Shown here: positions 35,359 to 38,277 of the stretch, piece after piece
Numbering within the stretch: position 1 is the first letter of the stretch
Layout of the letters: each line of letters starts with the position of its first letter
Assembly: GCA_029624765.1 (NCBI GenBank)
Contig: JARSSO010000045.1
Coordinates: 186,001-250,000, forward strand
DNA length: 64,000 bases
Reading direction: 5' to 3'
From: Candidatus Contendibacter sp.
Lineage (GTDB): Bacteria > Pseudomonadota > Gammaproteobacteria > Competibacterales > Competibacteraceae
Made by a program: the position numbers and the translations under genes
Notes under the pieces: generated by a model
The model's database searches: none
Seen by the model: the letters and a program-made list of their open reading frames with translations, nothing else
What the model was told of the DNA's origin: nothing

Positions 35359-35549
35359 GCCTTAACGCGAATCGGGGTCAAAACCCCCGAGTCCCGGTGG
35401 CGCCAGCACCACTGCATCGATCCCGGAATGTGGAGCGGGAAACCGTGATTGCGACACGTTAAGAGAGCGTATCCCAGCCTTCGCAGGATGGTGGCCGGTC
35501 CATCCCCGTGTCTTGCCAAACCACGGCTTGTCCGCAGGATCTGCGTATC

Positions 35550-36065
35550 ATGCCTTTGATTAGATTTGTAGTAATTCTGCTGGCGCTGTTTACCATCGAG
35601 TTGATGGGGCCGGTGCAAACCTGGGTCATTGAGCCGTTCACCGCGGCGGTGGCCAAGGTAAGCGCCGTCGTGCTTCAGGCTTTTGACAGCACGGTGCAGG
35701 CGCAAGGGATCGTGCTGCGCGATATCGAAACGGGCGCGGCGGTGAGCATCCAGCCCGGCTGCAACGGGGTCGAGGCCATGATCGTGGTGATGGCCGCCAT
35801 CGCGGCCACGCCGGCGACCTGGAAACAAAAGCTCGCCGGGCTGGCGATTGGCTTTCTGGCCATTCAGGCCCTGAACGTGGCGCGGATCATCAGCCTGTTC
35901 TATCTGTTGCAATGGAATCCGGTCTGGTTCGAGTGGGCGCACCTGTATCTGTGGCAGGCGCTGATCATGCTCGATGGCCTGATCGTCTATCTGCTATGGG
36001 TGCGGATGTTGCCGGTGCCGGGGGTCGAGGATCGACCCGCGCCGGCCGCGGGGGCTTCCTCATGA
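35550..36065 (+). CDS. xrtH: Exosortase H
   Basis: A 171-residue inner-membrane cysteine protease/transpeptidase. Exosortases cleave C-terminal CTERM sorting tails and attach surface proteins. The catalytic triad is visible: Cys71 in 'SIQPGCNGVEAM', Arg112 in 'ALNVARIISLF', His131 in 'FEWAHLYLWQ'. The small size and the neighbours identify the XrtH type, which handles IPTL-CTERM tails; a protein with such a tail is encoded at 36799-38277. The ATG at 35550 starts directly at the first helix; an in-frame ORF extends 42 bases further upstream. The stop overlaps the next start by an ATGA. Confidence 0.93.
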   Translation: MPLIRFVVILLALFTIELMGPVQTWVIEPFTAAVAKVSAVVLQAFDSTVQAQGIVLRDIETGAAVSIQPGCNGVEAMIVVMAAIAATPATWKQKLAGLAIGFLAIQALNVARIISLFYLLQWNPVWFEWAHLYLWQALIMLDGLIVYLLWVRMLPVPGVEDRPAPAAGASS

Positions 36066-36697
36066 CGCCGCGCCGCCCGATCGACCGTTTCCTCCTGCGC
36101 ACGCTGCTATGGCTGGCGCCGATGTTCGTGCTGTGGTACGTCCTGGCGCCGCTGCTGTTGAAGCCGGTCGCGGGCTGGACCCACTTCGCCCTCAGCGCCT
36201 TGTTCCCGCACGCCATCGCCGCCGTCGAGCAGCAGGGTCCAGCGGTCGACGTCATCACGCGGTTCACCGTCGCCGCGCCGGCGGAGGGCTCGGCGCCGGC
36301 CGGCGCGCGGGGGCAACTGGCGTTCACGATCAACGCATTGAAGTACGCCTATGGCTTGCCGCTGTTGTTGGCGCTGACCCTGGCGGCGCCGGTCCCGGCG
36401 GGCGAAAAGCTGTTTCGTGGCGTGGTGGGTGGATTGCTGCTCATTCCGGTGCCAGTCTGGGGCATCGCCTGCGAGGCGCTCAAGGTGCTGGTTTTCGACA
36501 TGGACCCCGCCATCGCCGCGCAAATGGGAACCACGCCGGTGACGCGGGAGTTGTTGGCGCTGGCTTACCAACTGGGCTATCTGATCCTGCCGGCGGTGAC
36601 GCCGATCCTGATCTGGGCCGCGCTGCACCGGGATTTTCTGGGCGAGTTGCTGCCGCAAACCCGACTGGCCGCTCCGGCCACGCCCAAGTCGGACTGA
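36062..36697 (+). CDS. Exosortase H-associated membrane protein
   Basis: A 211-residue inner-membrane protein with about four helices (around 10-30, 98-118, 122-145, 178-200) and a periplasmic section after the first helix. It overlaps xrtH by four bases, the constant arrangement of the uncharacterised XrtH partner protein. Its job is unknown; it may help in sorting or hold the substrate. The sequence ends in a charged tail, 'RLAAPATPKSD'. Apart from context and topology there is no recognisable catalytic motif. Confidence 0.85.
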   Translation: MTPRRPIDRFLLRTLLWLAPMFVLWYVLAPLLLKPVAGWTHFALSALFPHAIAAVEQQGPAVDVITRFTVAAPAEGSAPAGARGQLAFTINALKYAYGLPLLLALTLAAPVPAGEKLFRGVVGGLLLIPVPVWGIACEALKVLVFDMDPAIAAQMGTTPVTRELLALAYQLGYLILPAVTPILIWAALHRDFLGELLPQTRLAAPATPKSD

Positions 36698-36734
36698 CCG
36701 GAGCCGAAAAGCTTGAATCGCCTTTGGTTCCAGT

Positions 36735-36760
36735 AAAAAAAGCCCGCTGAAGGACGGGCT
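36735..36760 (-). terminator. Rho-independent terminator for the DUF11/IPTL-CTERM gene
   Basis: Read on the minus strand: AGCCCG, an eight-base loop, CGGGCT and a run of seven T. It lies 39 bases past the stop of the surface-protein gene and would also limit read-through from there into the xrtH locus. Confidence 0.85.
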
Positions 36761-36798
36761 CTTCCGCTACGCAAGGCCGTGGATTGGAAGGAAAAGGC

Positions 36799-38277
36799 TT
36801 ACGCCGCCATGCTCCCCTTGCGCCGCGACTGGCGCCAGACCAAGCCGCCCAGCAGCAGACCCATCAGCAGCAACGCCCATTCTTGCAGAGTGGGAATGTC
36901 CACTGCGGTTTGTATCAGAATGCTCGTCCTCGCCGTTGCCGCGTTATTGGCGGCGTTGGGGTCGGACTCGGCGCTGGTGGCCGTCGCCGTGACCGAGATG
37001 ACATCGACGCCCGGCGCCGCGCCGGCCGCGACGTTGACGTTGAGCGTGAACGTCGCGGGTGCGCCCGCGGCCAGAGTGCCCACCGTCCAAACGGGGCTGG
37101 CCCAGGTTCCGACGTTCGGCGTTCCGGAACCCTCGGTGACGCCGACGGGGAAAATCTCGGCAATGTTCACCGCGACTCCCGAGGCATCGCTCGGCCCATT
37201 GTTGGTCAGGGTCACGGTATAGGCCACGCTGCCGCCCGAAATGACCGGATCGGGCGCGTCGGCGATGGTGACGCTCAAATCCGCCGAACGGTCGACGGTG
37301 GTCGTTATGGTCGTCGAATCGTTGGTGTTGTCCGTATCCGGGTGGGTGCTGGTGATCGCCGCCGCATTGCTGAGAACCGCCCCCTGCGCCTCGGAACTAG
37401 GCACGGGTACCGTCAGCTGTATCGTTGCGGTAGCCGCGCTGGCCAGGCCACCGCTGATGGTCCATTCATTGGTCCCGGTATTGAAGGAACCATCCCCGCT
37501 GCTCGCCGTCACCGTGTAGCCAGCGGGCAAGGTGTCCAGAACCACGATATTCTCGCTCGCGGGGATGGCGTCGGGGCCATTGTTCGTCACGCTGAGCGTA
37601 TAGGTTAGTGTTTGACCGGCAAGCACCGGATCGGGGCTGTCCGTTTTGGCAACCACCAGATCGGAGGCCAGGTAAGTGACATTTCCGGCCAGGGTGTAGA
37701 CATTGACGGAACGTCTGCTGGCGTTCAAGACACCACCAAACCCAGTCTTGATCACTCCGATTTCCAAGGTGGTCGCGCCCGTCTTCGTCACGGGACCCAC
37801 GGCAATGGTCTGGGTGGTTGCGGTTCTGCTGGCGAACCCTCCGGCCGTGGTGATGTTCGTCCCAGAATCCGTATCGGCGCCATTCAGACGGGTGAAGGTC
37901 TGGAACGTTCCGCCCGAGGTTAACGCCCCACCGTTCCCTAAAGCAGTGGAACTCTGGCAAGCAATGATATCCACGGCGGTGATGCGCGCTCCGTTCGGGA
38001 TGGAAGCCAGGTCGATGGTCGCGGACTGTCTATCGTTCACCTGCAACAGCTTGGTCCAGGTTTCGGTCAGATTTGCGCTCGTGTCGCCTGGACAGCCGAC
38101 GGCCTCGTCCACCCAGGTGTAGCGAGCAAGGCCCAAACTCCATTGCAAGTAAAAACCGTCTCCGTTCGGACTCAGATTCGCCGTGACGGAACCGTGGGCC
38201 GGCGGGACGATGACGCCCCACAACAGGCCGATCATCCCCACGATGGCGGCTTTCCCGCCGAAACAGTTGTTCATCAT
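36799..38277 (-). CDS. DUF11-repeat surface protein with IPTL-CTERM sorting signal
   Basis: A 492-residue exported protein, the likely substrate of exosortase H. Order: signal peptide (about 1-30); a ~180-residue N-terminal region opening 'SVTANLSPNGDGFYLQWSLG'; two DUF11 repeats (about 205-320 and 325-440), each with 'LTYTLSVTNNGP' or 'VAYTVTLTNNGP' and a 'P.LAG/VISGG' turn; then the sorting tail 'DIPTLQEWA' (bases 36877-36897), a hydrophobic helix and a basic 'RQSRRKG' end. The motif usually reads IPTLSxWG; the Gly is Ala here. Start ATG at 38277 follows GAGGGGGG. It converges on the xrtH operon. Confidence 0.92.
   Translation of the reverse strand: MMNNCFGGKAAIVGMIGLLWGVIVPPAHGSVTANLSPNGDGFYLQWSLGLARYTWVDEAVGCPGDTSANLTETWTKLLQVNDRQSATIDLASIPNGARITAVDIIACQSSTALGNGGALTSGGTFQTFTRLNGADTDSGTNITTAGGFASRTATTQTIAVGPVTKTGATTLEIGVIKTGFGGVLNASRRSVNVYTLAGNVTYLASDLVVAKTDSPDPVLAGQTLTYTLSVTNNGPDAIPASENIVVLDTLPAGYTVTASSGDGSFNTGTNEWTISGGLASAATATIQLTVPVPSSEAQGAVLSNAAAITSTHPDTDNTNDSTTITTTVDRSADLSVTIADAPDPVISGGSVAYTVTLTNNGPSDASGVAVNIAEIFPVGVTEGSGTPNVGTWASPVWTVGTLAAGAPATFTLNVNVAAGAAPGVDVISVTATATSAESDPNAANNAATARTSILIQTAVDIPTLQEWALLLMGLLLGGLVWRQSRRKGSMAA

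Follow-up and report, generated by a model that had tools for sequence, protein, structure and literature searches.

The window, a stretch of DNA of 64,000 nucleotides, carries what is very probably a canonical exosortase H/IPTL-CTERM sorting locus with several cargo proteins, for which we propose cleavage of the cargo tail and hand-over of the cargo. Three genes make up the locus, namely xrtH, the gene of a partner membrane protein and a convergent cargo gene. They span 2728 bp, in agreement with a preliminary description of this DNA that had placed enzyme, partner and substrate within 2.8 kb and whose coordinates were nearly exact. Enzyme, partner and tag are already catalogued as NCBI families; the modestly new part is the slot beside xrtH, which is a cargo site with turnover between species. 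The nearest named genomes are those of Candidatus Contendobacter and Candidatus Competibacter (Competibacteraceae), and the 13 kb surrounding the locus are collinear with Ca. Contendobacter SCELSE-3-Con, at 89% nucleotide identity. We therefore take the window to come from a Ca. Contendobacter-like gammaproteobacterium of sludge.

Exosortase H and its partner membrane protein

The xrtH gene (35550..36065, + strand) encodes a protein of 171 amino acids that matches the exosortase H model TIGR04177 with 180.4 bits, far over the cut-off of 86 (E = 2e-53), while the next-best exosortase model in NCBIfam reaches 64.3 bits; it also matches the Pfam family PF09721 with 33.4 bits. Its putative catalytic residues are Cys71, Arg112 and His131, of which the first is the sole Cys and the last the sole His of the protein. 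All three are invariant in an alignment of 13 XrtH homologues from two subtypes, and the earlier identification of an exosortase H with these residues is thereby confirmed. The ATG at 35550 is shared with several homologues, although the frame stays open back to a GTG at 35508. Within xrtH, a segment of 360 bp (35601-35960) is ~99% identical to that of a related genome (G004), with clearly lower identity in its flanks, and dS between the window and this genome is 0.10 for xrtH versus 0.42-0.47 for the adjoining genes, suggesting that the segment is probably a recent recombination tract.

The partner gene (36062..36697, + strand; 211 amino acids) overlaps xrtH by ATGA at 36062-36065, as previously noted. 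Its product matches the exosortase H-associated membrane protein model NF041730 of NCBIfam with 187.5 bits against a cut-off of 35 (E = 2e-55), with xrtH adjoining in the same genome; Pfam holds no model for it. Among relatives, the partner gene lies directly 3' of xrtH in 21 of the 22 places where xrtH occurs, the exception being a genome that is 62% complete (G042), and the two are usually found together outside the Competibacteraceae as well. Thiocystis minor DSM 178, too, has both XrtH and the partner, with no IPTL tail in the 12.6 kb inspected. One further genome (G209) carries the XrtH-associated protein (L105, contig C1) and exosortase H (L128, contig C5) on separate contigs, so that adjacency is not strictly needed.

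A model of the partner predicted with AlphaFold2 from 12 sequences (mean pLDDT 73) has several long helices in the membrane; the loop at residues 54-86 is poorly predicted. Compared with folds in the PDB, the model gave no match (the best hit, DgkA, had an E value of 0.77 and is helical-bundle noise), and PDB sequence searches with the partner, XrtH and the cargo returned nothing meaningful. Comparison of the partner and XrtH profiles gave E = 0.0018 and then 2.5e-4, with a score of 32.9 (30 and 28 sequences). The controls were lower: the partner scored at most 20.1 against three membrane families unrelated to it, and a reversed profile scored 13.6. Such a signal would fit a partner that is a catalytically dead XrtH paralogue and forms a heterodimer with the active enzyme; if true, short exosortases of the XrtH type would work as enzyme/pseudoenzyme heterodimers. 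However, one block-shuffled null reached 26.4, and the similarity lies in one hairpin of ~26 residues (98-125 in the partner, 79-106 in XrtH). Neither subtype-2 partners nor a comparison with other exosortases reproduces the signal (score 11). With subtype-1 partners, the control family BacA reaches 21.9 over an overlapping stretch; hmmsearch detects no match between partner and XrtH. We consider a dead paralogue very unlikely and, the similarity being weak and local, do not claim homology between the two proteins. The co-transcribed partner would rather be a near-obligate accessory subunit, most likely acting in substrate docking or in the stabilisation of XrtH.

The neighbouring cargo and the other IPTL-CTERM tails of the genome

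The cargo gene (36799..38277, - strand) converges on the xrtH operon. Its start is placed at the first of two ATGs, at 38277, which is preceded by the purine run GAGGGGGG; counted from the second ATG at 38274, the protein has 491 amino acids. It comprises a predicted Sec signal peptide (38191..38277, -), read from the sequence as MNNCFGGKAAIVGMIGLLWGVIVPPAHG with S after the cut and a hydropathy peak at residues 4-27, then an N-terminal beta-rich domain, two DUF11 repeats and an IPTL-CTERM tail. Both repeats are recognised by Pfam (PF01345; TIGR01451 also matches), the first at 37303..37662 (-; residues 205-324) and the second at ~36919-37284 (-). The tail (36802..36897, -; IPTLQEWALLLMGLLLGGLVWRQSRRKGSMAA) consists of the IPTLQEW motif, a hydrophobic helix and a basic end. 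It matches PF18203 and, with residues 460-486 of 491, TIGR04174, at 37.7 bits against a cut-off of 20.5 (E = 2e-9) and at 43.2 bits in the search of its own genome. Hence the convergent DUF11-repeat protein ending in IPTLQEWA, a hydrophobic helix and a basic tail stands as first described. An AlphaFold2 model of the cargo (3 sequences) had a pLDDT of 47, too poor for a fold search. The motif and helix region of the cargo also aligns weakly with the IPTL-like motif and helix of the midcut-by-XrtH proteins (NF033207), but scores 23.8 bits where the cut-off is 45. With this score and with its motif at the C-terminus, the cargo is not a member of that family.

On the substrate side, where the preliminary description had seen a terminator, a hairpin AGCCCG-TCCTTCAG-CGGGCT followed by a T run is present at ~36741..36763 (-) and is a likely intrinsic terminator of the cargo gene. 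Its fold (56 nt) has an energy of -18.7 kcal/mol with a z score of only -1.3, and a terminator consensus scan did not list it, so that the call rests mainly on the visible hairpin and T run. A promoter scan found no promoter.

Searching the window's own genome (4.29 Mb, 99.95% complete) with family profiles retrieved five IPTL-CTERM tails over the curated cut-off and only one XrtH. The four further IPTL proteins are encoded on three other contigs and contain choice-of-anchor U domains, accompanied in two of them by bacterial Ig-like repeats. The locus had been described as facing its own substrate: a cognate tail does face XrtH, but the neighbour is not the sole candidate substrate in the genome, suggesting that XrtH serves several cargos. 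None of the four other tails outscores that of the neighbour, which has the top score. This score, the convergent orientation of the neighbour and the presence of a DUF11 orthologue in the same place in two relatives (G004 and G029) would also fit a dedicated cassette in which XrtH processes only the neighbouring DUF11 protein. Such exclusivity is, however, most improbable, given that five tails stand against one XrtH, that the other exosortase of the genome, XrtT, has its own adjoining PEP-tailed target, and that a related genome (G005) retains XrtH and partner without the neighbour. We favour an XrtH that would serve at least five cargos, of which the neighbouring one would be replaceable.

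All five tails end in IPTLxEWA, and 19 of 25 distinct tails from this genome and its relatives carry Ala at position 8 of the motif, the others having Gly (3), Val (2) or Asp (1). The Ala that had been singled out as the last motif residue, where Gly was said to be usual, is thus present, but it is the norm of the lineage and not an oddity. Elsewhere in the genome, contig C24 (L059:7436-11125) encodes an exosortase T (NF033770, 613 bits) followed by a VIT/VWA protein like the 'marine sortase target' proteins, with a PEP-like tail (GGGAPEPATLLGLALMALLLAGFLVRGR). Enzyme and target apparently form a second, separate sorting system.

Enzyme, tag and cargo slot in related genomes

Enzyme and tag co-occur. 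Of 59 genomes, 20 encode XrtH, 16 encode IPTL tails and 15 encode both (one-sided Fisher test, P = 5.6e-9, relatedness ignored). Within the 37 Competibacteraceae genomes alone the numbers are 18, 14 and 13, respectively (P = 2.7e-5, relatedness again ignored). No IPTL tail was detected at E<=0.005 in five XrtH-bearing genomes (G002, G022, G025, G027 and G034). Four of these five carry only a divergent second XrtH subtype and several are incomplete; in some, the tails may be variants like IPTLSQW. Conversely, one genome (G033, 82% complete) has IPTL tails and no XrtH that we could find. The divergent XrtH, with DLCNGVEA around the Cys, occurs in nine Competibacteraceae genomes (L045-L053) together with a divergent partner scoring 46-66 bits. 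In some genomes with the second subtype, IPTL genes lie within the operon or close to it, a part of them encoding the Gln variant IPTLSQWA; other genomes have no recognisable tail.

The gene beside the enzyme pair is exchanged between relatives. In two genomes (G004 and G029) a DUF11 orthologue, 79-82% identical to the cargo, faces the operon as in the window. For xrtH, the partner gene and the cargo gene, the last compared with these two orthologues, dN/dS is below 1, which indicates purifying selection. The linker of the cargo shows no conservation, while the tail that follows it is 81% identical to that of each orthologue. A third genome (G019) is homologous to the window at the nucleotide level over xrtH, the partner gene, the intergenic spacer and the tail-coding segment. 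The homology breaks off at 36897, where the IPTL codons begin, and beyond this point the slot protein has a Gly-rich body unrelated to the DUF11 cargo. Retention of a near-identical tail on an unrelated body is what recognition of the cargo through its tail would predict. In a fourth (G036), homology ends inside the tail at 36885; its open reading frame is short and lies near a contig end. Unrelated bodies sit on near-identical tails at loci L089 and L091, where homology ends at these positions.

In another relative (G018; contig C15, L042:6760-9796), the IPTL-CTERM protein of the slot has one cohesin and two PASTA domains. It lies next to a subtilase-like dockerin protein, and mtnA follows as in the window. 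These two proteins could form an exosortase-anchored cohesin-dockerin pair. A Gly-rich protein with an IPTLSEWG motif faces the operon in G017. In G005, a Ca. Contendobacter relative (isolate SB13), the partner gene is directly followed by mtnA, and eight IPTL tails are encoded elsewhere in the genome. Three genomes have the DUF11 protein in the slot and two have an unrelated body on a near-identical tail; one has the cohesin/PASTA protein, and one has nothing there. The enzyme pair is thus stable, the adjoining cargo exchangeable and the tail modular.

A proposed sorting route and its known relatives

The exosortase/PEP-CTERM and sortase/LPXTG systems share a common logic: the substrate is exported by Sec, held by a C-terminal stop-transfer helix, cleaved at its motif by a membrane-bound Cys enzyme and handed over to an acceptor in the cell envelope. 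This architecture has been described before (PMC3237569). A corresponding XrtH/IPTL mechanism at the present locus is well supported by the sequence comparisons. The cargo would be exported by Sec via its signal peptide, and its C-terminal helix would lodge in the inner membrane, so that the IPTLxEW motif would face the periplasm and the arginines would stay in the cytoplasm. The polytopic enzyme XrtH, with its Cys, Arg and His, would then recognise IPTL tails as its substrates, cutting at or near the motif, and hand the cargo to a cell-envelope acceptor or release it. As a result, the DUF11-repeat body would be presented at the outer membrane or outside it.

The literature searched contained neither a cleavage assay of XrtH nor any experimental paper on exosortase H. 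At least one IPTL-CTERM protein reaches the cell surface: the S-layer protein mela_00855 of Methylomirabilis lanthanidiphila, which has a predicted IPTL-CTERM domain, was identified as such and localised by mass spectrometry and immunogold labelling in work that makes no mention of an exosortase (PMC8671808). It is possible, though rather unlikely in our view, that XrtH only trims or releases its cargo with no covalent anchor, the DUF11 protein being a secreted matrix protein. The DUF11 and choice-of-anchor bodies of these cargos are of a kind found on extracellular proteins. Moreover, PEP-CTERM proteins play a part in the flocs of a sludge bacterium (PMC9850573), and a granule secretome includes such proteins (PMC12019908). 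The Methylomirabilis S-layer protein, however, largely stays on the envelope, although shed patches were labelled too (PMC8671808).

In this lineage the set of three genes is compact, the locus occurs in nature both with an adjoining cargo and without one, and a conserved tail is found on swapped bodies. These swaps provide a natural test of whether the last ~32 residues suffice as the address. Since the Competibacteraceae are bacteria of wastewater, IPTL-tailed surface proteins are candidates for a role in granules and flocs.

The locus shares its superfamily (PF09721, TIGR04178) and the tripartite logic of its tail with the PEP-CTERM/EpsH (exosortase A) system, from which it differs in its short enzyme of 171 amino acids, its IPTL rather than PEP motif and its dedicated XrtH partner; unlike in EpsH systems, no exopolysaccharide cluster was recognised beside it. 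The exosortase T system on contig C24 resembles it in that an exosortase lies beside a target in the same genome, and differs in its enzyme family (NF033770) and its PEP-type tail. The closest likeness is to the catalogued exosortase H/IPTL-CTERM system (TIGR04177, NF041730 and TIGR04174): all three parts score over their cut-offs here, and the order of XrtH and partner, the catalytic residues and the tripartite tail are alike. What sets the present locus apart is the Ala after EW, which is usual in this lineage, and a cargo gene that is convergent and swapped between species.
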